Shown here: positions 1,830 through 34,901 of the stretch, piece after piece
Layout: each line of letters starts with the position of its first letter
Numbering within the stretch: position 1 is the first letter of the stretch
From: a virus
Length of the DNA: 35,366 nt
Strand: one strand, 5' to 3'
Virus record (IMG/VR): IMGVR_UViG_3300030331_004026
Location: 1-35,366 of that record
Translations under genes and position numbers: made by a program
The notes under the pieces: generated by a model
Told to the model about the DNA's origin: nothing
The model's database searches: none
The model's input: only the letters and a program-made list of their open reading frames with translations

Positions 1830-2048
1830 TTAGTTTCCTCTGTTTATTAAGATAGTAAGCATCTGCTTCATTTCACTTAATTCATTTTCAATTGCATTTG
1901 TTTTTTCTTCTAATATTTTTATTCTAGTTTGATCTTCACTTTTTCTTTTGTACTCAGATAAAGATTTCATATCGGTGGAAAGAACAGCACCAGAACCTCT
2001 GTCTCTGACTACATCTTTTCTACCTTTTATATTTATTATATTTTTCAT
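1830..2048 (-). CDS. Small coiled-coil protein, 72 residues, unknown function
   Basis: Starts with an ATG that overlaps the TGA of the giant tail protein by 4 bases (ATGA at 2045-2048), a typical translational-coupling junction, and stops 1 base before the next gene. The N-terminal 20 residues are basic. Residues ~28-68 are rich in Glu, Lys, Leu and Ile with heptad-like spacing (IKILEEKTNAIENELSEMKQ), indicating a coiled coil, perhaps trimeric. No homologue recognised. Its place between two large tail proteins suggests a linker, trimerisation peptide or fibre chaperone, which is inference from context only. An AATAAATA late-promoter-like motif lies inside its first codons (2030-2037) but may be fortuitous. 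Confidence 0.65.
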   Translation of the reverse strand: MKNIINIKGRKDVVRDRGSGAVLSTDMKSLSEYKRKSEDQTRIKILEEKTNAIENELSEMKQMLTILINRGN

Positions 2049-5000
2049 GCTAGGGCAATGCCTCTCAGATCTTTAACTATTGGATATTTGGTGGTGTCAT
2101 TTGGAGCTAGATCTGAATATAGGCAGATCTTTATACTAAATTTACCCATTGGTTCTGTTAGATCTTCATCTAAAGAGTATTCAACCTCTTGGAATGACTC
2201 AGATGTAGCAGTTGTGTTTGGAGTCAACTGAATGTATGGTTGATTCTCAAACGGAGCGTCTTCACCCGATGGTTGTTGTTTAATAAACACTTGAATATCG
2301 GTATTTTGTCGTTTATACTGAGTGAGTAGAACCTTAATGTTTCTAGCTTCAAATCCTGAGGCTAGATTAACCTGTCTGGTTATATACCTAGCTCTTCTAG
2401 TTTCTCCCGGAGCCACTGGTGTAGCGATTGGATCTAACTCTCCGTTATACGCTTCACCAGTTTTATCCAAGTCTTTATTGCCCTCAATCTTATTCTCTAC
2501 GGATATTAGAGACAATCTTGACAAGTCTAAGACTGGTGAAACATCTGGATCTAAACCGTCAACCGTGGCGTTTAGTACAAAGGTATTTTCTTCACCGTTC
2601 ATATCGATTCTTCTACTAGAGTCTAGTTCGAAGTTTTCATTAGCAACGATCGCAAACTCTTCATCTGTTGCTCTAACATTACTGGGGTTATTTGGTGTCA
2701 TCCTGACACTTAAGTTAAACTTACTCGTTGGCCAGTTTATGTTTGAAGCATTGAGTTGGAAGAGGTCAAGTTTAATAGAGTCTTCACTGCCTGTCTTTCT
2801 CTCCTTGAAAGAAACAGTATTGATACCAGCAGTCTTAAACTTACATTTGTTAATGACAAACATCAAATCAGAGTTTTGATCAGGCGTCCAAGTACTGGCA
2901 TTCTGAGACTTGAATAGAGAACCTAAGTGGGGTTGTTCCACCACAGGGTTTTCCGTTCCGATTTGATTTTCGCCCATAGTAGCAATGAATACCTCATAGT
3001 CATCACTGTTCGAGAGAATGACCATAGAATACTCTTGTGGTAGTAGATAGATTGGTGAACTAAACTTAAATCTGGTTCTTGTTCCGGGACTGTCCGCATC
3101 GGGGGTTTCACTTATGTTGACTTCTTCTGGTGTAAGAACAACTTCTGCGAGGGGTAATACGGCTGCAGAGTGTGGGAAACCGTTTCTGGTTGGTCTAATC
3201 TGCATGGTTACCGGTAGAGTATCTGACTTCTTCTTAAAGAATACGTCAATACTGTCCACGAACACTCCATTGGCATGTTCAGATGGACTGACCAAGAAGG
3301 TCTGTGCAACGGGGTCTCTATTCTGAGGAATAGTCTGCCAGGAAATGTTGGTGTCGGTGATAATTCTCTCTTCGGTGACGCTATTTCTTTGTAGTCTGGG
3401 TAGACGAGTGGAGATCGAAACGTCCTCTTGAGTTTGCAGAATGCCTTGTGCGGGATATGTGGTCTCCGCAGAAGTTTGTGCGTTCTTTACATCGTTAGAT
3501 GGTTCGTCCGTAAGTCGGAACAATCTTTCGCCGGTTCTAAACTGCCCGCCTGGGATTACAAAAGTTAGAGATCTTTCAGAAGTTATGGCACCGTTTTCGT
3601 CAGTGATTAGTTCTGATTCTGTGAGTCTCTTTCTTGCACCCGAAGCGTCTAAGAATGTGCAGTGTTCGTCTACGTTGATATTATCAAAGAAGGCATGAAC
3701 TGGAGTGTTTGGTCTCATGTTTGTTGCAGTCACAGCAATCTTTCTGGTTCTGATGAACGGAACAACACTAACATCAACCACTCTGTTACCAATATTCCTT
3801 TCGATACGTTCAGGCACAATTCTGTTTTCAACACCAGTTCTCGTACCAGATCCAATTCTGGAGGTCACGGTTCCGATTTGGTTTCCTTGTCTGAACTGAG
3901 CTTCTGTGAACGATCCGGTCCAGTTAACTTCCCAGTCGTTCCATTGAGTTCCGAACGCAACACTTCCGAGTTCTTCCCATGCGTCATTCTCACCCTCAAG
4001 GTTAACCAAAACATCTGGTCTCTGTTCGGTGTCCACCCAGTTGTCTGAGGCTGGATCCATCTTAACTTCGCCCAACCAGTTGGTGACGCTGAATGGATTG
4101 ACGTTGATACTGGTGGTTGCGAGTGGTTGTCTTATGAAAATATCCTCATCGAATGGTAGTGTTATAAAACCGTCTACAGTCTGATTCATACCATTGAGAG
4201 TTGCAATATCAAAATCTACGTTTTCGGACACAAACGGAGGCCTTAACTCCTGATTTTGGAAATCTATAGAAACGTTGTAATCTCTGTTTCTAACATTTCC
4301 GACACCATGTCCTGAGAACTGATCTACTATTATACCATTCTTAAATCTATTGTTACCGTTCGCATCTTTGATGAACAATGATTCGGTTTCTCTTTCGAGG
4401 AGAGAAAGAGTTGTATAGTACTCTAATTGTTCAACCCTTCTCTTGATCTTACCAATGTCATTCATTGTGAATCTTTGGTTTTTAATAGACTTGGAGACGA
4501 TATCCGAGGTCTTGAATGTATAAGCGGGAATATCGAACCTATAGATTTCCATTGCATCTGCTACATCATCTGGAGACACTGGGAACAGAGAAGGCACTCC
4601 CTGAACCACCTTGAATCTTCTGTCTCTTGTGATTGCAAGTTTATCAATTCTTGGTAGGTAGAACGAATAAGAGACGTTGAACGACTGACCAGAGTATGGT
4701 ATGAATACTTTACTGAAAGTTCCATCCGGTGATTTGATGGGTCTGAAATCAACTACTGATTGTAGTTTTGTGACCTCTCCGGTGTCCGTAGAAACATATT
4801 CAGGAATATCATCGTACGTAACTTTTAGTTCACCCGAATCTGGCGGAGGTGTCTCATTTAGATATGAGGAGACTACGATGGGCCCATCGCCCTTGTGTTC
4901 AAAATATCTGTATGATACCACTAGGGGACCGACAAGATTTGCTGTTTTATTAACTGTGGAAAGGACATCTGTTGTCGTTCCAAAAGTGGAAAGTCCATTA

Positions 5001-8000
5001 TTCACCACAAAAATCTTTCCAGTGTCATAGAAATTGTCTCTTTGACCAGTGTCTATGGTAAACTTGTTAGTTACATCAGCAGTAGCGCTAATTCCCGTAT
5101 CGATTATACTGGTAACATTTAGAATGTCAGCTTTAGATAGATTGAAGAAACTATTTCCAGTTTGGTCAACAAGAACATCAGCTGTTCCCAGATTATCAGC
5201 AGTTCCAAGTAATACCTTAGTTCTTATCACACTAGAAGTTATATCCGATCCGGGGTTAACATCCAGCATGGCGATTAATCTATATTCGCTTGTAACTGGG
5301 AATGTTCCGGTTCCACCGCCGGTGTTCTTGACCAGAGTCAACGATCCCTCGCCGCCAAAATCAGCATTGTTGGTAAACATCTGGAATGCACCAGAATATA
5401 TGTCCATTATTTTACCATCGTTGTCTAATAGAATGTAGTTGTTGATGTCAGCGCCTTCTATCACTCCGCCACTTGAACCTCCACCCACAAATCTTATCAG
5501 TGAAGATCCACTTTTAATCGTGGATGAATTGGTGCCTGGATCTAAGACTATTGGAAATTCCTTCTGAATTCTATAGTCCATAGAATTTATTGTTTTTACA
5601 ATATCGCCTTGGGGAACTTTAAAGAATAATTTGTTATCTTGAATGTTGAAAACTTTACCGATGTTGGATGGATGTATGTTTGCGATTTTACCAGCGTTAG
5701 TTCTCACACTCCCGGCTAAGTTTTCGGAGGTTGCTAGTCCATAGAAAATAGATCTAGCTTCTGATAGGAAGAATTTGACACCCGGTCGTTTGTTGAACAT
5801 TTCAATATCAAACAGTGATACCTGATGAGCATCATCTGATTGTTCTCTGATTTGTTTAATTCTAGCAGTTCCCATCGTAACTGGAACCTGTTTGGTATAT
5901 TGATCGGCAGAAGATCCACCAGACCCTAAAGATCCACTAAAGAATGCACCGTTCAATCCATAGTTATTGGTTTGTGTTATTCTTCCTGTGGTGCTTTGCA
6001 CGAACGTACCAGAACTATTTACAGTGCCCTCGACAATTGGTTTAGCGTTAACTCCAACCTCAAACGTTCCGCCTGTGATAGAATCTGATTCGATCAACAA
6101 TACGGTGTCAGAAGTGTCAGCAGAGTTCCCTGAATTTCTAGCGGTAAACTCAACTACAGTTCCGGTAGCAAATCCGGACGGGTTGTTTCCGGGAATTCTC
6201 TGTGCGACTCTTTCTCCGACCGTATAGAATTTGCCTGGGATGAAGTTACTCTTTGATTCCAAGAGTTGTTCGGCAGTTTCTCCTTCGATGAACTCTCCGA
6301 ACCCTGTGAAGTTAGCAGTGCTAATATTAAATGGATCGTTGAATTTTACGATAACGGATTCTCTTTGATTGACGGCACTGGTGGACTCGATGCCATCACC
6401 ACCGTAAGCACAGAAGGCATGGTTACACACACTATTGTACAATCCATAAATGTAACCTAGATCTCTCTGGAATCCTTGGAAGTTGTCACAGATTTGACTT
6501 AGTAGTCTCTTCTGGTTTCTATCCCAACTAATTACCGTAGCTTTATTGACAAAGTTAGGATCATTAGTCCATTTGGTAAAGTCAAACGAAGACTGTCCTA
6601 GATTGTTGTTGGTGATCTGATATACTTCTTGTCCGTGCTTATAGTCTCTACCGACGATTCCTTCAGACAACAGAGTTTCAACATCTGTTCCTGCTGCCTC
6701 CTCCGAGTTACTAAAGTTACTAGCACGGAATCCACCAACACTATTCATCATTTCTAGATAATTACTGTCTAGAATACCACCATCGTCACCCTTAAATCTT
6801 ACCTCTTGTACAGAAATTTCACTAGTGGCACCATCGGTAATACCATAACTGATTCCACCCGGATCGGCAACGGTATCCAGTAGACCCGCAAATACTAATC
6901 CACCCGCACCAGCACCACCTACGGAACCATCCCCACAACTATTTAAGAAGTCGGTTTGAATTACGGAACCACCACCGAAACCTCCGGTGTTGCTGGTAAA
7001 CCCACAAGTGTTCTGGAAGGTATTACCGGCTAAGGCTTCGACGTATAGAACTGGACCATTTGTGGTATTTACCCAAGCAACAACTTCTCCGAAAGCTGTG
7101 CGAGCTGTGCTGGGATCTGCAAACGATCCACCCGGAAGTATGAACGAACCACTAAGTCCGGAAGTGGATGTGCTTCCTGTATATTGTTTCTGTCTAATTA
7201 TATCCCCAACAGCATAGTTTTGATCAGAAACATATCCATTGACACCCTCGAACTCTCCGTGTTTTACGAAGATTTCTAAAATTTGCTTATTAATGATTGA
7301 AGATATACTACTTCCATAGTTAACTGGGGAACAGTTTGCGGTCGCTCCAGATATACCGGCAAAACCTTGCTGAACTACTCCACCATCCGGGTGAATCCCG
7401 GAGGTTCCACCACTCTGTATGAATAGTGCGCTGTTCTTTCTGAAGTTTGTGGACTCGGCTGGAACCCAGGCTCTCGCTACGCCCAAGTCGCGGACGTATA
7501 TTCTTTCCTTTGATGTCTCGCCAACATTACCCACAAAGACCTGTCTGACGTAGGAACAAGTAACACCCTTAGATCCAATAGTGGTCGCCATGTCAGCAAA
7601 ATTACCTATTGAATTTGGTTGCACCCCATTACCAATTTCATAGTTAGCACCCGATCTATAATCTTCAGAGAAAATAATCTTCTGAATGTTCTTATCTACT
7701 TTAGTTCCCGGAGCAAATTGTACAGAACTAGTAAACCCACCCTGATTGTCTATCGTAGTTGGTAGGTAATACGCTGAAGAATCGTTACCCACCAATAGAG
7801 ATGTTGAGGAAGCTTCAACGGTCGCTCCACTAAAGTTATCAATTACACCAACACTGTCAAATTGATCTTCGTGTTCCGTAGCGAACAATGGAGCAAATAG
7901 ACGCATATTAACATTGCCTTTAGCATCAGCCTGGAAAGGTATGTTAACTTGAACAAATTTACCCTTAACATCAATCTTAGGCAAAGTCTCTAAACTGAAT

Positions 8001-9619
8001 GGACCGCTAGTCCCCTCTGGAGTGCTACCGAAGTTGTAAGATAAAAATCTATTGTTAGAATATTTTATAGCAGGGTCGTCTAGTGGTAGATCTGGAGTTT
8101 CGACAACTATATGATTTCCAACATTAGCTGTAAGGTTAACCCCAATCAGACTGTTGGTGGTTCTTGCTTTGTCTGTTTCCACTATGGTGGTTGACTGGTT
8201 CTCGAATTCATAACCATAAACGTAAGCTTTACCCGGACTAACAGATAGAGCTAATTTGTCGGTTGTTCCGCCTCTTTCGGCTTCAAATACACCAGAAGGA
8301 TCGGGAATGAATGTAACGTTAGTTATAGTACCGGATGCTAGGTCACCACTACCTTGTTCGGATAGGGTTTCGGTCTCCGCGTATCGACCAACATTCATAT
8401 CCACGGTTATTCTTTGAGCTGTGGCTCCAAAGAATAAAGTTCTGTCTGTGATGTCCAATACCTCTGCTGTAGGACCACTGACACCGCCCGTTGAAGATTG
8501 AACTATATCACCAACACTAAACACCGCCGACGAAGAAGTTAAATCAACATCAAGTTGATACTTATCACGCTTAAAGTGTTCGAGTGCTGTAACAGTAAAT
8601 GGCCTTACAGTGTAGTTACCAGATTCATCAAAAGTTCTTCTTGCTAATGTTTCTTCCAGTTTCGAGTACTCTGTCCTGTCGTATCGTTTGGTTATTACTC
8701 CATCTTCAACTCTCAGGGTATCTAAGAAGTCTTCGTCCACAAAATTAGAAGGAGTACTAGATGTAACTATGAACGGTTTAAAGTTTAGAACCGGATCTAC
8801 TTGATAACGGTCTGCTCCCGGAGCTGAAAAGTTAAACGATCCATTTGATGGGTCTAGTAATGTTGGGTCGTCGATATGATCAACAACTTTCTTGTTGATA
8901 CTTAAACCAATTCTACTGGTTGGTAGGTTATAAAGTCTAACTCCCTCTGGAGCTGAGGCGTTAAAACCAACATCATTTATGTCAGATCTTTCGATATCTC
9001 CGGTAGCGGATAATCTACTCGGGACAGTTGTCTGCGGGGTGACATGAACAAAGAAACCATCTACAAAATAAACGCCAGTATCTATTGAAAATGCCTTTGC
9101 GTCACCGGTAACAGCCACAAAATCAGCAGTGGAACTCTTAAGCGTTACAGATATATCTTGGGTGGTGCTAAAAATCTCCTCGCCGAGACCGAATGAATTT
9201 GATCCGGTTCCACCACCACTTAAATACTGTAAGAATATAACTGGGAAGTTATCACTTGTGGTCGATCCTCTGGATTGATCTACATCCACAACTCTAGCTC
9301 TTAGAGCTGAGTGTTCGCCTGTACCCGTGACTATATCTCCAGATAATAACGTAACGACAGATGGTTCCACGTTAGAGTTAAGTCGTGCAAAAGAAACCGT
9401 TTTCTCTGTCATGTAAGAACCAAGAACGGGAGTGCCGTTCTTGAAGACATGGTTACCAAACCTCTCAATTTGTGATTGCAGAGCGGTTTGTAATTGGGTC
9501 AGTTCTCTAGCCTGTACGGCAAAACCAGGCTTGAATAAAATCTTCAAATAATTCTTCGACTCGTCGAAGTCGTCGTAATATGGTTCGCCGGATGTTAGTT
9601 CAGGGTCATACGATGGCAT
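2045..9619 (-). CDS. Giant baseplate/tail structural protein, DUF4815-type N-terminus, 2524 residues
   Basis: The N-terminus (YDPELTSGEPYYDDFDESKN, then LFKPGFAVQARELTQLQ at ~residues 28-45) matches the start typical of DUF4815-type structural proteins of marine T4-like phages. A VDFRP motif at about residue 1620 and a late block with DPVAQTFLVS...GVFVDSIDVFF also fit that type. Much of the middle is built from beta-rich modules of the form VG[ED].[IV].Q...A.G.VV.[WF]...L.[VI]...GG.F, also seen in the two upstream baseplate genes. Its position directly after gp8 is where T4 has gp9/gp10, so it probably forms the outer baseplate or fibre attachment; this is inference. GGGAG lies 8-12 bases before the ATG. 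Unusually long for a single T4-like baseplate polypeptide (T4 gp10 is about 600 residues). Confidence 0.85.
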   Translation of the reverse strand: MPSYDPELTSGEPYYDDFDESKNYLKILFKPGFAVQARELTQLQTALQSQIERFGNHVFKNGTPVLGSYMTEKTVSFARLNSNVEPSVVTLLSGDIVTGTGEHSALRARVVDVDQSRGSTTSDNFPVIFLQYLSGGGTGSNSFGLGEEIFSTTQDISVTLKSSTADFVAVTGDAKAFSIDTGVYFVDGFFVHVTPQTTVPSRLSATGDIERSDINDVGFNASAPEGVRLYNLPTSRIGLSINKKVVDHIDDPTLLDPSNGSFNFSAPGADRYQVDPVLNFKPFIVTSSTPSNFVDEDFLDTLRVEDGVITKRYDRTEYSKLEETLARRTFDESGNYTVRPFTVTALEHFKRDKYQLDVDLTSSSAVFSVGDIVQSSTGGVSGPTAEVLDITDRTLFFGATAQRITVDMNVGRYAETETLSEQGSGDLASGTITNVTFIPDPSGVFEAERGGTTDKLALSVSPGKAYVYGYEFENQSTTIVETDKARTTNSLIGVNLTANVGNHIVVETPDLPLDDPAIKYSNNRFLSYNFGSTPEGTSGPFSLETLPKIDVKGKFVQVNIPFQADAKGNVNMRLFAPLFATEHEDQFDSVGVIDNFSGATVEASSTSLLVGNDSSAYYLPTTIDNQGGFTSSVQFAPGTKVDKNIQKIIFSEDYRSGANYEIGNGVQPNSIGNFADMATTIGSKGVTCSYVRQVFVGNVGETSKERIYVRDLGVARAWVPAESTNFRKNSALFIQSGGTSGIHPDGGVVQQGFAGISGATANCSPVNYGSSISSIINKQILEIFVKHGEFEGVNGYVSDQNYAVGDIIRQKQYTGSTSTSGLSGSFILPGGSFADPSTARTAFGEVVAWVNTTNGPVLYVEALAGNTFQNTCGFTSNTGGFGGGSVIQTDFLNSCGDGSVGGAGAGGLVFAGLLDTVADPGGISYGITDGATSEISVQEVRFKGDDGGILDSNYLEMMNSVGGFRASNFSNSEEAAGTDVETLLSEGIVGRDYKHGQEVYQITNNNLGQSSFDFTKWTNDPNFVNKATVISWDRNQKRLLSQICDNFQGFQRDLGYIYGLYNSVCNHAFCAYGGDGIESTSAVNQRESVIVKFNDPFNISTANFTGFGEFIEGETAEQLLESKSNFIPGKFYTVGERVAQRIPGNNPSGFATGTVVEFTARNSGNSADTSDTVLLIESDSITGGTFEVGVNAKPIVEGTVNSSGTFVQSTTGRITQTNNYGLNGAFFSGSLGSGGSSADQYTKQVPVTMGTARIKQIREQSDDAHQVSLFDIEMFNKRPGVKFFLSEARSIFYGLATSENLAGSVRTNAGKIANIHPSNIGKVFNIQDNKLFFKVPQGDIVKTINSMDYRIQKEFPIVLDPGTNSSTIKSGSSLIRFVGGGSSGGVIEGADINNYILLDNDGKIMDIYSGAFQMFTNNADFGGEGSLTLVKNTGGGTGTFPVTSEYRLIAMLDVNPGSDITSSVIRTKVLLGTADNLGTADVLVDQTGNSFFNLSKADILNVTSIIDTGISATADVTNKFTIDTGQRDNFYDTGKIFVVNNGLSTFGTTTDVLSTVNKTANLVGPLVVSYRYFEHKGDGPIVVSSYLNETPPPDSGELKVTYDDIPEYVSTDTGEVTKLQSVVDFRPIKSPDGTFSKVFIPYSGQSFNVSYSFYLPRIDKLAITRDRRFKVVQGVPSLFPVSPDDVADAMEIYRFDIPAYTFKTSDIVSKSIKNQRFTMNDIGKIKRRVEQLEYYTTLSLLERETESLFIKDANGNNRFKNGIIVDQFSGHGVGNVRNRDYNVSIDFQNQELRPPFVSENVDFDIATLNGMNQTVDGFITLPFDEDIFIRQPLATTSINVNPFSVTNWLGEVKMDPASDNWVDTEQRPDVLVNLEGENDAWEELGSVAFGTQWNDWEVNWTGSFTEAQFRQGNQIGTVTSRIGSGTRTGVENRIVPERIERNIGNRVVDVSVVPFIRTRKIAVTATNMRPNTPVHAFFDNINVDEHCTFLDASGARKRLTESELITDENGAITSERSLTFVIPGGQFRTGERLFRLTDEPSNDVKNAQTSAETTYPAQGILQTQEDVSISTRLPRLQRNSVTEERIITDTNISWQTIPQNRDPVAQTFLVSPSEHANGVFVDSIDVFFKKKSDTLPVTMQIRPTRNGFPHSAAVLPLAEVVLTPEEVNISETPDADSPGTRTRFKFSSPIYLLPQEYSMVILSNSDDYEVFIATMGENQIGTENPVVEQPHLGSLFKSQNASTWTPDQNSDLMFVINKCKFKTAGINTVSFKERKTGSEDSIKLDLFQLNASNINWPTSKFNLSVRMTPNNPSNVRATDEEFAIVANENFELDSSRRIDMNGEENTFVLNATVDGLDPDVSPVLDLSRLSLISVENKIEGNKDLDKTGEAYNGELDPIATPVAPGETRRARYITRQVNLASGFEARNIKVLLTQYKRQNTDIQVFIKQQPSGEDAPFENQPYIQLTPNTTATSESFQEVEYSLDEDLTEPMGKFSIKICLYSDLAPNDTTKYPIVKDLRGIALA

Positions 9620-25234: not shown

Positions 25235-25954
25235 ATGAGTTTACCAAAGATCGCAGTTAAAAACTTTACTATAACCCTTCCAATTTCTAAGAAGCGAGTC
25301 ACATACAGACCCTTCTTAGTCAAGGAACAAAAGATTCTACTTTCGGCAATTGAAGAGTCGAAGTTGATGAACAGGAATGAAGGAGAATCGCATCTCCTAT
25401 CCAACTTTAAAAATGTCATATCGAATTGTATTGTGTCCAGTAAGTTCAATCTCGACGACTTGAGCCTGGTAGACTTCAACTACCTATTCCTTCAAGTCCG
25501 AATCGCTTCCTCTGGTGAATCGATCGATCTTCTCTACACATGTTCTTGTGGAACACCAAAGGAGGTCAAAGTAAATCTAGACGATATAAAGGTGAAGACT
25601 AAAGGTGACCTTGAGAAGAAGATAGAAATTGGATCTGACATCGGTGTCATCATGGGACTCCCCAAACTCCGTGTTTCCAGTTACATGTTCGAAGGCACTA
25701 CAGATGTAGACAAAATCCTCAAGGTTGTGGCCAGTTCCATCAAGCAAATTTACGATTCGCAGGATGTCTACGACGCTGACTCACACACCGTCGATGAGAT
25801 CATGGAGTTTGTTGAGAACATGCCAACCGAATCACTCGAACAGATAAAAGAGTTCTTTGAGGATCTACCACACATCGAATACAAGAAAGACATCGACTGT
25901 CCAAATGGAAACGAAGAACTTTATGTACGGGAGATAGAAGATTTTTTTCAATGA
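25235..25954 (+). CDS. 26: Baseplate hub protein gp26 (T4_baseplate family)
   Basis: 239 residues. Residues 20-40 (KRVTYRPFLVKEQKILLSAI) are the T4_baseplate family signature. A CxC at 103-105 (YTCSCG) begins what is usually a zinc-ribbon-like pair; the second half near 222 reads CPNGNEE, so the usual second Cys is missing. In T4, gp26 is a hub-assembly protein. AUG preceded by TGGAG. Its last codons, GAT TTT TTT CAA TGA, contain an in-frame slippery heptamer, and the next gene lies in the -1 frame, so part of the product is probably a 300-residue fusion with the 61-residue protein. That would make it the counterpart of the short form of a tail assembly chaperone. Confidence 0.9.
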   Translation: MSLPKIAVKNFTITLPISKKRVTYRPFLVKEQKILLSAIEESKLMNRNEGESHLLSNFKNVISNCIVSSKFNLDDLSLVDFNYLFLQVRIASSGESIDLLYTCSCGTPKEVKVNLDDIKVKTKGDLEKKIEIGSDIGVIMGLPKLRVSSYMFEGTTDVDKILKVVASSIKQIYDSQDVYDADSHTVDEIMEFVENMPTESLEQIKEFFEDLPHIEYKKDIDCPNGNEELYVREIEDFFQ

Positions 25955-25979
25955 TGCTCTGTAATGAGTCGTTACAGAG
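25942..25979 (+). promoter_or_regulatory. Candidate programmed -1 ribosomal frameshift signal
   Basis: Slippery heptamer T_TTT_TTT (25942-25948) is in the correct phase of the gp26 frame. An 8-base spacer (25949-25956) is followed by a perfect 8-bp stem: CTCTGTAA (25957-25964) and TTACAGAG (25972-25979). The 7-base loop can close further by a U-G and a G-C pair. A -1 slip gives ...EDFFS then the 61-residue frame with no intervening stop. All parts are seen in the sequence; function is inferred from the standard geometry of such signals. Confidence 0.75.
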
Positions 25980-26136
25980 TTACTACCAGAACAATTTTGG
26001 ATTGATGAAACATCACAATTGGAGTTTGACTGACTTAGAAGAGATGTTACCTTGGGAAAGAGATATATACTTATTGTTAACTGAGCAATGGGTAGAGAAA
26101 GAAAATGAAAGAATAGAACAACAGAACCGGAGTTAA
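25951..26136 (+). CDS. Tail assembly chaperone extension / gp51-like small protein (-1 frame of gp26)
   Basis: 61 codons starting with ATGATG over the gp26 stop (ATGA overlap). Residues 21-43 (HHNWSLTDLEEMLPWERDIYL) match a motif I recall from short proteins following gp26-type genes in many myoviruses; the C-terminus is a charged helix (EKENERIEQQN). There is no convincing Shine-Dalgarno in front of the ATG, since the upstream sequence is the T-run and spacer. It can be made by -1 frameshifting as the C-terminal part of a 300-residue gp26 fusion, or by reinitiation at the overlap. The following gene begins 2 bases downstream and looks like a tape measure, which supports a tape-measure chaperone role. 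Confidence 0.75.
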   Translation: MMLCNESLQSYYQNNFGLMKHHNWSLTDLEEMLPWERDIYLLLTEQWVEKENERIEQQNRS

Positions 26137-26138
26137 AC

Positions 26139-27728
26139 ATGGCAGACAGGCCACTGGGTGAAGTAATAGAAGAACTCACCGAAACAATCAAACGACTAGA
26201 GTCGAAACAAGCGAAAGCAAAGCCAGGTAAAACTTTCGGTGATGTCATGTCCGGTGTCAATGTTGAAACATTTTTCCCATCAATTCTATCCCCAATCGGC
26301 CGAGGTGGTCAGAATGTCGCAAATCTTATACAAGGAACCATCAATCAATTCAGAGGACGAAGACTGTCATCTGCGAGGTCGCAACTGGAAGAACTACAGT
26401 CTCAGATGGGTTCCGAGGAGTCTGAATCGGAATCAGCATCCGAACCCGTTTCACCAACATCCCAGTCTAGTTCCTTTGAACCCATCTCACCAATCTTAGA
26501 AAATATAGAACACATTGTTCATGATTCTTACAATTGTCTCCTAGACATCAAAAAGATTCTAGGTGATGGGTTGAAACTCGACACGAAGGAAAACAAAGAA
26601 AATAAGGTAAAAGAACGAGCAGACGAAAGGAAAGATTCAAAAGAATCAAGAATTAAACTCGAAAAGAGTCGTGAAGCTTCACGCGGAGGATTTGCATCTT
26701 CTATGAAAAATATGGGAATTGCGAGTTTGGGTGCAGCTGCGGAAGTCACCGGTGGAGGTGGTATGGGCGGTATGGTTACGAGTATACTTGGAACTCTGTC
26801 GATGTCTGCTATACTCCCCATCATCACTACGATTGGTGGAGCTATTTTGACAGCATTGGGGGCGATTATATCCACAGTGGGATTACCTGTTATTCTCGGT
26901 ATACTGGGTATCGCCGGGTTGATTACCGCAATAATTGTTTTCAAAGATGAAATCCTCGGCGTCCTCAAGTACATCGGCGATATAGCGAGACAAATCTTTG
27001 GATGGTTGATCAAAGATGAAGAAGCACCTCCAGTAGTTAAATCACTCCAACAATTTGTACAAGACACTGCTGAGGCCGGGGGAAGGGCAATGATGCTCGG
27101 CCTCGATCAGGGAATCTTCGGCCCAGTCAACGCCGAATCCCTTATCACTGGACCCCGAGGTTCCCGACGAGAACAGTTGGTAATGGATGAGTCCTCTCGC
27201 CTTGAACGTGCATCTGGTGGCGCACCAAATGAAATTCAGAACGCATCAAGCGAACAAGAAAAATTCAGAATATTGTTGAATCAGTTCGAGAAGGCGATGC
27301 CGATCGTCGGCGGTCGGGGAACTGCAATCGATGAAATCAAGGATTTACCCCTTCCCGAACGCCGGGAAGCTTTCCGTTTAATGCGAGAGGAAGACTTCCG
27401 AACATTTAGGAACATAGCAATTGAAGACGAGACTTTAAGACCACTTCTGTCACAGGTTGGGTCACTTAGAGAATTAGAACAGAAAGCTGGCAAAACCAAG
27501 ACTTCGCCCAGTGACTCCAACGTATCTCCTCCGGCTAAACCCACCAACCGTCCTCCCGCAACCATCGAACCTCCAGCTGGTAATAACTCACCGGCCGGCG
27601 GAAGCGATAACACTGCAAACTCCGATGTAGCTTCTGCTAGTGGTAAACCGAATATATTTCAGACTATAAACAATATAGAAAATATATTCCAGTCGAGTCC
27701 GTTACTACAGGGCACACAATTAGTATAA
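26139..27728 (+). CDS. Tape-measure/hub-like protein (gp29-like candidate)
   Basis: 529 residues (T4 gp29: 590). N-terminal helical segment (EELTETIKRLESKQAKAKPG), a Ser/Glu-rich low-complexity stretch at ~91-118, a charged coiled region at ~145-182, then a strongly hydrophobic Gly/Ile/Leu block at 211-268 (SAILPIITTIGGAILTALGAI...), and a Pro/Ser-rich C-terminal tail (~470-510). Hydrophobic blocks inside long helical proteins are typical of tape measures, which fix tail length and enter the host membrane. Its place right after the gp26/-1-frame pair is the position of the tape measure in other tailed phages. Identity with gp29 is inferred, not shown by residue matches. A different structural protein remains possible. 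Confidence 0.65.
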   Translation: MADRPLGEVIEELTETIKRLESKQAKAKPGKTFGDVMSGVNVETFFPSILSPIGRGGQNVANLIQGTINQFRGRRLSSARSQLEELQSQMGSEESESESASEPVSPTSQSSSFEPISPILENIEHIVHDSYNCLLDIKKILGDGLKLDTKENKENKVKERADERKDSKESRIKLEKSREASRGGFASSMKNMGIASLGAAAEVTGGGGMGGMVTSILGTLSMSAILPIITTIGGAILTALGAIISTVGLPVILGILGIAGLITAIIVFKDEILGVLKYIGDIARQIFGWLIKDEEAPPVVKSLQQFVQDTAEAGGRAMMLGLDQGIFGPVNAESLITGPRGSRREQLVMDESSRLERASGGAPNEIQNASSEQEKFRILLNQFEKAMPIVGGRGTAIDEIKDLPLPERREAFRLMREEDFRTFRNIAIEDETLRPLLSQVGSLRELEQKAGKTKTSPSDSNVSPPAKPTNRPPATIEPPAGNNSPAGGSDNTANSDVASASGKPNIFQTINNIENIFQSSPLLQGTQLV

Positions 27729-29454: not shown

Positions 29455-30642
29455 CTAGACTAACGAGAAACTATATGAACTGTTCTTCTGCCATGCCACC
29501 TGTTTCTTCATGTCGAATCTTACAAGATCATTTCTATCTTGAAGTTTTCGAAGACCCGGAAGCATACCGTAAAACACAATTAGTTTATCGAATTCTTTTT
29601 TCGACATACCAGTGAAGGTACATACAGCATTTCGCCATTCCATGAACTCTTTATAAATCTTTCTCGCTGCATCCTGAAAACCTTTTTCCTTATCAGCAGC
29701 AGTGTTAAGAGGAAGATACGCAACAAGTCGCTGCTCCCTCGGGAGGTCATTGTCGTCTTCGGGAATTGCTCTTTTGATGGCGTTGTTGAAATTTTTATCC
29801 CATGTGGTCGTGGGCAAAATCCTATATTCGCCCGCAGACTTCGACTCGGGAAAAACGTCTGGGCCCCAGGCCTTGTAATCCCAGTTTTCCAGTAATTCAT
29901 GCGGTTTGGCACCTGCCCGAGTCGGACCATATGCAAGCGCACAACTTGTACCAATATCAGAACGAACAGATTCGATCGCCTTTACGAGAGTTTCGTTTTT
30001 AAATCTAGCTGTTTGATTGATACGCACAGCTCGGTTCATCATTTCGACATCATCTGTTGGGTCAACCACATAAGTCTGTGGATATGATTCTTCATCACAC
30101 TGTTGTCTTAGTGCAAACTCCAAGTCTTCTCTCTTACAAGATTCATGAAGTTGGGGTGGTTGTTGGAAAATTTGACCAGCCTCGATTGCTGCAACCTTCT
30201 GATCTTTGATTGAGATGCCATCTGCAAATTTAAATCGTGCGACAATGATATTTGTTATCTTCAGTGAATTTATAATTTGAAGTCGAGTGTTTCCAGTTTC
30301 CACTGAAGATAAACCTTCATACGTCGAGATGCACGGGGGGAAGTGAAACACCTTCCATCCGTTTCTTCGAATTTCACTACGCAGTGCATCATAGTTCTCA
30401 CTGACACCGGACACCCGATGCTTCTGATGAACGACATTTGCGTTCATTAGATCGGAAACCTCCACAAGTTCGAACTTATCAAATTCCATAAGTCCGTCCT
30501 TGGTGAGCGCGTTATCGAAATACTGCGGTTCCGCTTGCTTCCAAAAATCGATGTTGTTGTTGTAGTGCTCGAGAATCGATTCATCGAACCGGTTATTTGG
30601 TAGGTCTTCTAACTTAATAACCATTTCTGTTGAGTTTGTCAT
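29455..30642 (-). CDS. ParB/sulfiredoxin-fold-like protein, 395 residues
   Basis: Residues ~57-140 have the ParB-like layout: FELVEVSDLMNANVVHQKHR, then YDALRSEIRRNGWKVFHFPP, then the ETGNTRLQIINSL loop (residues 115-127; the G-N/H-x-R turn) and a final strand NIIVARFKF. The remaining ~250 residues are helical and charged, with NQTARFKNETLVKAIESV and FYGMLPGLRKLQDRNDLVRF, unrecognised. ParB-like domains in phages act as nucleases, CTP-binding DNA-sliding proteins or DNA-modification partners; which applies here cannot be said. AAAGGAG lies 8 bases before the ATG. It is preceded by a hairpin leader and late-type motif and followed directly by another late promoter. Confidence 0.75.
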   Translation of the reverse strand: MTNSTEMVIKLEDLPNNRFDESILEHYNNNIDFWKQAEPQYFDNALTKDGLMEFDKFELVEVSDLMNANVVHQKHRVSGVSENYDALRSEIRRNGWKVFHFPPCISTYEGLSSVETGNTRLQIINSLKITNIIVARFKFADGISIKDQKVAAIEAGQIFQQPPQLHESCKREDLEFALRQQCDEESYPQTYVVDPTDDVEMMNRAVRINQTARFKNETLVKAIESVRSDIGTSCALAYGPTRAGAKPHELLENWDYKAWGPDVFPESKSAGEYRILPTTTWDKNFNNAIKRAIPEDDNDLPREQRLVAYLPLNTAADKEKGFQDAARKIYKEFMEWRNAVCTFTGMSKKEFDKLIVFYGMLPGLRKLQDRNDLVRFDMKKQVAWQKNSSYSFSLV

Positions 30643-30721: not shown

Positions 30722-30756
30722 AGAAAAACACTATAAAACAAGTGGTTTTCGGTAAA

Positions 30757-30829
30757 CTCCCCGAGCTGGACTCGAACCAGCAACCTAGCGGTTAACAGCC
30801 GCTCGCTCTACCAATTGAGCTATCAGGGA
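30757..30829 (-). tRNA. tRNA-Asn (anticodon GTT)
   Basis: 73 bases. Acceptor TCCCTGA pairs with TCGGGGA (one U-G); D-arm GCTC...GAGC; anticodon stem AGCGG/CCGCT around loop CTGTTAA; T-arm CTGG-TTCGAGT-CCAG. Discriminator G; the CCA end is not encoded. It lies 22 bases after tRNA-Arg on the same strand. Confidence 0.95.
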
Positions 30830-30851
30830 AAAGCACTACCCTCCGAAGGAA

Positions 30852-30925
<74 letters not shown>

Positions 30926-30946
30926 AGAAAATGTTGATAGTAAACG

Positions 30947-31193: not shown

Positions 31194-33152
31194 TCAACCT
31201 CCACCACCGGGGACACCGGAAGGCGCAAATCCAAAGATTGGTCTGGGTTTGTTAGGATCAATCGTTCCAGTTGCACCCTGATCTGCTGCTTCGTAATCAG
31301 CAACGAATCGGATATCACTTGGTAGTCTAACGAATCCACCCTCAGTAATTACCTTAAGGCCTTGTGCTTCGGTTGGGTGCGAAACGCCTGGTCCAACCTT
31401 TGCATTCTTAAAGTTACTTCCGTCGCCTCGAACACCAAGATCGAGAGAAGACTTGGTATAGATACTTCCCTTATTGAAAGTGACTCTGTTGGTGTCGGTA
31501 AGACTAGTTCTGTAAGATTCATCACCGAAGGCTCGATGAGTTGAGGACTCGCCTAGATCACCCCGTCCATCCATATAGATGAGGTAATCTCCGAGTGCCA
31601 CTTTACCCGCTTCTAATTGAAGGTTTTCACAAGTAAATCCGCCGGTTTCACCCAACCCGTCGATTAAGAACAAGTTGTTCGATCCAACCACATCATATCC
31701 CTCGTAAGTTCTGCCTTCCGATGGACTGTTTATTGGGTCAAAGGAGAAGAAGGATTCATTTGCGTTGATCACAGCCCTATATGTGTTACCATCGGGATCT
31801 TCGCGGAGGAATAAGTTGGTGATCGAGTAAAGTTGTGTATTCGTATCACCTGAAATTCCCCCTAACCCGAATGTAATGGGTCTATGATTACCGTAAGCCT
31901 GACCAGCATTTGCTGGGAAACCTCCCAGCGATTGACTACGATTAAATTCATTTCTCTGTGGGTAAAGATAGAAATTAGTGTAAATACCACTTATCTTTGT
32001 TCGTCCCGGTCTATACTCAGAGTTGATGATTACATTCGGAACAGTCCCTTTGGGATGAAGTACAAGTCTAGAGATATAGTATTTTCCGATGATCGAGTCG
32101 GCCACCCGAGGTTCATAGTTTGTCCGGGTGAAGTCACCAAGTGAAAGGGTATCCGTAATCGTAAAATCCTTGTCGGTGCCGAAGTGTCCGTCGTAACCGA
32201 GGTCGTCAGATAAAGCTTCAAAGGTGAGTATGGACTTGTTAGCCTCAGCTTGACGATCATCGTTGACGTTCACAAACCTGAACGGAAGATCTCGGACTCC
32301 AGATACAACCTGTTCGTATGTTCCACCCTGCAACTGAACAGAAAGTCGGGTTCCTCTTAATGAACAAAAATCAACTTGACTATCGATGAGGTTGATCGAG
32401 AATGGAGCATTGGGGTTTGCAATTACTGTTTCAGCGAGAATTCTCAAACCACTAGCAGTGTTCCCAATACCAAAGGTAACTCCATCGGTGCCCGGTCCGA
32501 CTCGTCCCTGACTGTCGATCCAACCATTGTTATTCTGTCCCGATAGTAAGTATCTAAAACCATCGTACATTCCAATGAATCCCGCTTGGTGATCGGTTCT
32601 AAAGAAATCACCATCATCGTTGGAGCAATTGTTACCTCCAAGGGAGTTACCACCCTGTCCCATCTCGACGATTCCCGCTAGGAATGTGCCTGAGGCGTGG
32701 AATTGAGTGTGATCAGCACCAGAACAGTTACCAAAAGAGTAACCATAGTTCCGGTCTACGACTAAAGACTTAAGTTTGTCGGAAGTGTTACCGGCACCGA
32801 TCCATCCCTTTCCGTCGTTTTCTCCCCAAAAACCACCGAATAGACATGGTGTTAGAGGAAGCGAATATGTAATTCCATTTGTGTTGTTGATACATTCAAA
32901 TCTTACATGATCGCCGCCACCGGGAGGTCTTGATGCCGGTGCGAGGTGAAAGTCTCCGGTGCTACCACCATCCCAGTCACCAGACCCACCAGAACCACCA
33001 TCAGCGAAAGTAATTCCTTCTCTTCTAACTAACCAGTTTTCTTTTCTATTCCAAACGTAAGCAAGACGATCCCGTTCTGGAGTGTTTGTATTTATGTTAT
33101 TAGCTTGATTTCCGGAAATATAATTTCCTCGCCAAAAATATGAGTCTGCCAT
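31194..33152 (-). CDS. Predicted virion structural protein, beta-rich, 652 residues
   Basis: No signal peptide or membrane segment; very rich in Gly, Asn, Ser, Asp and aromatic residues. It starts MADSYFWRGNYISGNQANNI and has GSGGSGDWDGGSTGDF at ~54-69, then many short beta segments with NGWIDSQGRVG-like turns, suggesting a right-handed beta-helix or fibre/decoration protein. The tail ends in a Pro/Gly tract (GFAPSGVPGGGG). AGAGGG lies 9 bases before the ATG. It is flanked on both sides by terminators, so it forms a single-gene unit inserted between tRNA/small-gene cassettes. Composition resembles the late tail genes rather than its small neighbours. Role in the virion is inferred. Confidence 0.75.
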   Translation of the reverse strand: MADSYFWRGNYISGNQANNINTNTPERDRLAYVWNRKENWLVRREGITFADGGSGGSGDWDGGSTGDFHLAPASRPPGGGDHVRFECINNTNGITYSLPLTPCLFGGFWGENDGKGWIGAGNTSDKLKSLVVDRNYGYSFGNCSGADHTQFHASGTFLAGIVEMGQGGNSLGGNNCSNDDGDFFRTDHQAGFIGMYDGFRYLLSGQNNNGWIDSQGRVGPGTDGVTFGIGNTASGLRILAETVIANPNAPFSINLIDSQVDFCSLRGTRLSVQLQGGTYEQVVSGVRDLPFRFVNVNDDRQAEANKSILTFEALSDDLGYDGHFGTDKDFTITDTLSLGDFTRTNYEPRVADSIIGKYYISRLVLHPKGTVPNVIINSEYRPGRTKISGIYTNFYLYPQRNEFNRSQSLGGFPANAGQAYGNHRPITFGLGGISGDTNTQLYSITNLFLREDPDGNTYRAVINANESFFSFDPINSPSEGRTYEGYDVVGSNNLFLIDGLGETGGFTCENLQLEAGKVALGDYLIYMDGRGDLGESSTHRAFGDESYRTSLTDTNRVTFNKGSIYTKSSLDLGVRGDGSNFKNAKVGPGVSHPTEAQGLKVITEGGFVRLPSDIRFVADYEAADQGATGTIDPNKPRPIFGFAPSGVPGGGG

Positions 33153-33565: not shown

Positions 33566-33636
33566 AGCGGGCGGAGAGATTCGAACTCCCATTTCAAGGT
33601 TGGACACCTTGAGTAATGCCGTTATACGACACCCGC
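33566..33636 (-). tRNA. tRNA-Gly (anticodon TCC)
   Basis: 71 bases. Acceptor GCGGGTG pairs with CGCCCGC (one U-G); short D-arm GTA...TAC; anticodon stem CAAGG/CCTTG around TGTCCAA; T-arm GGGAG-TTCGAAT-CTCTC (its stem has one U-G pair). CCA not encoded. A strong hairpin begins 4 bases upstream of its 5' end. Confidence 0.93.
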
Positions 33637-34828: not shown

Positions 34829-34901
34829 TGCCTTCAGCAGGGCTCGAACCTGCGACCAGCGGATTAAAAGTCCGATGCTCTACCAACTGAGCTATGAAGG
34901 C
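34829..34901 (-). tRNA. tRNA-Lys (anticodon TTT)
   Basis: 73 bases. Acceptor GCCTTCA pairs fully with TGAAGGC; D-arm GCTC...GAGC; anticodon stem CGGA/TCCG around CTTTTAA; T-arm GCAGG-TTCGAGC-CCTGC. Discriminator A; CCA not encoded. Confidence 0.96.

Follow-up and report, generated by a model that had tools for sequence, protein, structure and literature searches.

The gp26 homologue and the short gp51-like frame that follows it in the window almost certainly constitute one tail assembly chaperone (TAC) gene with a -1 programmed ribosomal frameshift. The window, i.e., the whole stretch of DNA analysed (35,366 nt; IMG/VR record IMGVR_UViG_3300030331_004026, positions 1 to 35,366), is a T4-like baseplate and tail region according to open reading frame (ORF) and profile annotation (Table 1). 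The PF12322 match of gp26 scores 164.2 bits against a gathering cut-off of 24.5. The best gp26 identity to named phages is 37% among the matches listed, and by its sequence the phage represents an uncultivated lineage of its own among T4-like phages. The record is itself a genome fragment, and within these 35 kb there is a single gp26 match; given an intact frameshift arrangement, a second gp26-like gene would be unnecessary.

Table 1. Predicted features of the chaperone locus and neighboring genes
Feature	Position	Strand	Remarks
Head closure gp4-like gene	23421	+	
DNA end protector gp2-like gene	23863	+	
Tube-like protein gene	24513	+	
gp26 homologue, most likely TAC-N (short form)	25235..25954	+	239 aa, stop TGA; database label 'baseplate hub'; PF12322 E 4.8e-48, phrog_150 E 4.6e-49
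Internal Shine-Dalgarno-like GGGAG	25929..25933	+	8 nt between GGGAG and heptamer; probable frameshift stimulator
Slippery heptamer T_TTT_TTT, predicted -1 shift site	25942..25948	+	X_XXY_YYZ phase; conserved in relatives
Frame-0 stop TGA of gp26	25952..25954	+	would be bypassed upon shift
11-bp hairpin	25956..25980 (25956-25966 with 25970-25980, loop 25967-25969)	+	putative stimulator
-1 frame, predicted TAC-C (gp51-like domain)	25948..26136	+	62 codons past the slip, then stop; complete TAC-NC of 300 aa
ATG of annotated-style gp51 ORF	25951..25953	+	overlaps stop (ATGATG); optional reinitiation start
61-codon ORF	25951..26136	+	
Probable tape measure protein, expected chaperone client	26139..27728	+	529 aa; phrog_58 E 3.7e-6, gene position

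An initial annotation, made from the sequence alone, had proposed that gp26 and the gp51-like frame are a chaperone pair produced by -1 frameshifting. Its proposal is upheld by the conservation and phase of the site, the missing starts in relatives, the TAC fold and the homology of the -1 frame to the C-terminal part of T4 gp51. The 239-aa gp26 ORF and the 61-codon frame lie where it had placed them, and the T_TTT_TTT that it recognized close to the gp26 stop is in the correct phase: the 3' end of gp26 reads GAA GAT TTT TTT CAA TGA in frame 0. The next frame is exactly -1 and open, as it had also noted, and a slip would join EDFF to SMMLCNE and give a product of 238 + 62 = 300 aa. Runs of seven T's are not rare in the AT-rich window (10 observed vs approximately 22 expected), so the evidence from this one sequence is modest, and relatives were collected for comparison for that reason.

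Every examined relative with an intact gene end contains an in-phase T_TTT_TT[TCAG] located 7-13 nt 5' of the stop, together with an open -1 frame. The in-phase site was found in 79/79 intact loci in a first scan, of viral contigs (gp26 identities approximately 28-64%, site 7-10 nt 5' of the stop; one further locus was truncated and is hence outside the 79), and in 78/78 intact loci in a second scan, of metagenomic loci, the two sets of loci being partly overlapping. In-phase T_TTT_TTN is also present in all 12 isolates checked, which come from widely separated groups (phages of Stenotrophomonas, Caulobacter, Pelagibacter, Pseudomonas, Citrobacter, Sinorhizobium [two phages], Aeromonas, Vibrio [two phages], Rhizobium and Methylophilales). 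In 52/52 non-redundant loci (<85% identical at the DNA level), the first Phe is encoded by TTT and is preceded by a codon with T in third position. Phe uses TTT in 71% of cases, and C-ending alternatives exist for GAT, AAT and AGT; synonymous codon usage gives P ~10^-18 for the 52/52 pattern if the loci are independent, and their independence is not full. Within the clade of the window (4 members, approximately 60% protein identity), conservation over the approximately 900-nt locus peaks in the 31-nt stretch at the slippery site, with 28 of the 31 columns invariant vs 49% overall. A chance poly-T was considered, and is ruled out by the conservation together with the synonymous-codon test. We regard the comparative evidence for the predicted slippery site as decisive, and it confirms that the observation is real and far beyond chance.

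Conservation of the -1 translation begins with the residues directly past the slip (RI.L.HE.L.NYY.TNF.LMQHHKYSLTELENM.PWER.IY). It matches phrog_634, 'baseplate hub assembly catalyst' (E 6.5e-25), and the C-terminal part of phrog_150, and its profile matches T4 gp51 205-245 and not T4 gp26. Mean column identity is 58% in the C domain vs 46% in the N domain. Part of this stretch could be read as a gene of its own, with gp26 and the 61-aa frame translationally coupled: ribosomes would stop at the TGA and restart at the overlapping ATGATG. Such coupling would account for the presence of ATGATG at the stop in the window and its three closest relatives, and for the ATGA/TAATG-type overlaps in Vibrio, Rhizobium, Caulobacter and Aeromonas phages, in which two separate genes are annotated. 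However, we consider it very improbable, in that most relatives have no start before the conserved domain. The first ATG of the -1 frame is 63 nt past the start of the heptamer, inside the conserved block, in 43/92 loci, an ATG at or before +9 is found in only 8/92, and invariant residues stand 5' of the first ATG in the relatives. A separate gene would therefore miss part of the conserved domain in most of them, and because most have no usable start for the downstream frame, an independent gp51 gene is highly improbable in them. In addition, the ATG in the window has a poor Shine-Dalgarno (SD) sequence (anti-SD energy upstream, -1.0 kcal/mol), and an ATG at that place is absent from most relatives. 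The SD-like sequence that does exist (see below) is misplaced for a start, with a -1-frame start within its reach in 1/92 loci. Lastly, coupling leaves the invariant T_TTT_TT run and its phase unexplained. We conclude from these alignments that in most relatives translation of the conserved C-terminal domain, which lies in the -1 frame, has to begin in the N frame. In the clade of the window, which has the ATG at the stop, reinitiation by coupling might yield a free 61-aa domain besides the products of the frameshifted gene.

GenBank records treat the TAC-C stretch in different ways. It is left unannotated in Synechococcus phages ACG-2014d and S-H9-1, and the record of Bellamy contains a shortened gp51 that starts from an internal ATG.

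The locus also contains an internal SD-like sequence, GGGAG, which the initial annotation overlooked and which is a probable stimulator of the frameshift. Its anti-SD duplex has an energy of -7.4 kcal/mol vs -6.4 at the gp26 start, values that assume the E. coli anti-SD. The position of this sequence is conserved across 92 loci: 8-mers starting 15-17 nt 5' of the heptamer have a mean 16S-tail pairing energy of approximately -6.7 kcal/mol, and controls range from -2.2 to +2.4. It is encoded by Glu-Gly codons, among which GAG and purine-ending Gly codons are preferred. The observed mean SD energy is -6.76 kcal/mol vs a synonymous null of -5.0 (z -10.6 and -11.7), and control positions in the same genes have zero or opposite codon bias. 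We also considered that the sequence is purely a consequence of the conserved Glu-Gly codons, which is partly true (the null itself is -5.0 kcal/mol), yet the observed -6.8 is well beyond it. A role as the ribosome binding site of the downstream frame was rejected, the spacing being wrong and the starts missing. T4 gp26, which lacks a slippery site, retains an SD match of -5.8 kcal/mol at the corresponding position, and thus the motif also occurs outside frameshifting genes.

A hairpin 3' of the heptamer may be a second stimulator. The stem described initially is present in the window, where the perfect 8-bp core (25957-25964 with 25972-25979) extends to 11 pairs with a 3-nt loop, and in this form begins 7 nt 3' of the heptamer. 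A 62-nt stretch containing it folds at -16.4 kcal/mol (z = -2.9 vs dinucleotide shuffles), and an Rfam search gave no match. The initial annotation expected an alignment of relatives to retain the T-run, its phase and the stem, the last with compensatory changes. The T-run and phase are indeed retained, but the expectation for the stem is weakly borne out: of the 4 members of the clade of the window, 3 retain the hairpin, with a U-G/U-A change on one side only, and in the other the pairing is disrupted. Downstream hairpins with E <= -9 kcal/mol occur in 15/52 loci vs 0-7/52 at twelve control offsets. Stable hairpins in only 15 of 52 loci indicate that these structures are lineage-specific. A universal hairpin was rejected, many relatives having no stable structure 3' of the heptamer even though stable ones are enriched.

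-1 shifts are stimulated by an SD at a spacing of 9-14 nt, as in dnaX and many IS elements (PMC5009743). As in E. coli dnaX, an internal SD, a slippery heptamer and a downstream hairpin are combined in the window, with GGGAG ending 9 nt before the first base of the heptamer. In contrast to dnaX, the gene is a different one, the heptamer is T-rich rather than A-rich, and the hairpin is found only in part of the family. GGGAG, heptamer and hairpin would thus resemble the three-part dnaX signal, with presumed stimulatory roles for the first and last. Transcriptional slippage, in which the polymerase would insert or skip a base within the T run and the altered mRNA would be translated normally, is a known route at T-runs (PMC5009743) and would suit the seven T's of the window, but we consider it extremely improbable: in most relatives the run is only six T's long and the next base is C, A or G (TTTTTTC in 33/52; 67/78 in the second scan), which is short for RNA polymerase, the site is always in tandem-slippage phase, and an SD-like stimulator works on ribosomes and not on RNA polymerase.

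We think it likely that the frameshifting T4-like phages share a conserved internal SD 8-10 nt 5' of the slippery site, maintained by codon-level selection, that a stimulated -1 shift of the dnaX/IS type sets the ratio of short to long form throughout the group, and that loss of the signal in the T4 group accompanied replacement by two paralogous genes. The internal SD makes control of the chaperone ratio directly testable. Our literature search found no report of an internal SD in T4-like TAC genes, which is weak evidence because most subscription journals were outside its scope.

The predicted structure of gp26 is consistent with a chaperone. The top PDB match of an AlphaFold2 model (pLDDT 89.6) is the HK97 tail assembly chaperone (2ob9; Foldseek prob 0.93, Z 8.0, rmsd 4.1, 89/107 residues). 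The second is YqbN (3klu; Z 6.7), which we take to be a phage-type chaperone, and the following match has Z 4.1. A PDB sequence search with the gp26 profile found no relative. The fold match spans gp26 residues 1-95 only, and the HK97 match at Z 8, over residues 1-93, would be borderline alone. The model indicates that residues 1-95 of gp26 carry the TAC fold, and together with the sequence comparisons it makes TAC-N and TAC-NC of the lambda G/GT type the most likely identities of gp26 and gp26-gp51.

In lambda, G and GT are a short form and a -1 frameshifted long form, and the gene is directly 5' of the tape measure gene (PMC5009743). The window resembles this system in having a short form and a frameshifted long form next to a probable tape measure gene, the frameshift here being predicted from sequence. 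It differs in its slippery heptamer, in its dnaX-like internal SD, and in that no sequence similarity to G/GT was detected in searches. The initial suggestion that the next gene encodes a tape measure is plausible. This 529-aa gene occupies the position of annotated tape measure genes in Cr30 and HTVC008M, and its product has a hydrophobic central stretch; however, the match to the phrog_58 profile is weak, and tblastn of phage records with the protein gave no match. By position and this weak profile match, it is probably the tape measure gene. An extra small ORF (approximately 80-150 aa) lies between TAC-C and the tape measure in several groups (L087, L088, L089, L092, L096 and L097) and is absent from the window.

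We postulate that most ribosomes terminate at the TGA of gp26 to give the 239-aa TAC-N, and that a minority would slip -1 on T_TTT_TTT, probably stimulated by the SD-like sequence and perhaps by the hairpin, to give the 300-aa TAC-NC. If the analogy to lambda gpG/gpGT holds, the N domain would cover the neighboring tape measure protein, the C domain would bring in tail tube subunits, and both would then leave. Chaperone action on the tape measure is inferred from this analogy.

T4 genes 26 and 51 both encode PF12322/phrog_150 proteins, as does gp26 of the window, and T4 gp51 consists of a gp26-like domain and the C domain of the window's -1 frame, joined in one frame. Whereas the window and most other groups have one frameshifting gene, T4 has two divergently oriented paralogous genes, one short and one long, and no slippery site. 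T4 gp26 ends in EFFELL, with GAG TTC TTT at the corresponding position, and stops just past the corresponding Phe-Phe. The gp26 and gp51 copies of T-even phages fall into two separate groups in a tree that, being unrooted, gives no date for the duplication. T4 gp51 is needed for hub assembly and is absent from the virion (PMC3004832). The C domain that it shares with the predicted long chaperone offers a sequence-level reason for its role. Shewanella phage Thanatos-2, like T4, has gp26 and gp51 as divergent paralogues, with the C domain in the gp51 frame.

Frameshifting in this family is known. The abstract of Vladimirov, Gautam and Davidson reportedly names T4 genes 26 and 51 and describes frameshifting as conserved in several T4-like groups. 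According to two papers that cite this work (PMC10885494 and PMC12846349, citing Virology 2022;566:9-15), it identified the TAC genes of T4-like phages, which are frameshifted in some groups and two genes in others. One of these papers states that a short and a fused long TAC gene replace frameshifting in some T4-like phages (PMC10885494), and the other that poly-T slippery sequences are known in their TAC-N genes (PMC12846349). From these citing papers, the genes appear to be of the same gp26/gp51 family and the slippery sequences of the same poly-T kind as ours. The initial annotation knew of no frameshift for gp26 of T4-like phages, and this claim to novelty falls, frameshifted TAC genes having been proposed in 2022 as the same two papers report (PMC10885494, PMC12846349). 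Judged on its sequence, the locus is a clear further example of the known T4-like TAC frameshift. Where frameshifting operates, the annotation as 'baseplate hub gp26' and 'hub assembly catalyst gp51' would be corrected to one gene for a tape measure chaperone of two lengths. This correction reaches a large number of T4-like phages, marine ones included, in which the C domain is often unannotated or shortened.

Several other features of the window lie on the - strand. A 2524-aa protein (2045-9619) matches phrog_358 and DUF4815, neither with an assigned function. ORFs of 395 and 652 aa (29455-30642 and 31194-33152) that have no family match adjoin a gp32-like gene. Four tRNA genes, for Asn (gtt), Arg (tct), Gly (tcc) and Lys (ttt), are located at 30756-30926, 33566-33636 and 34829-34901.
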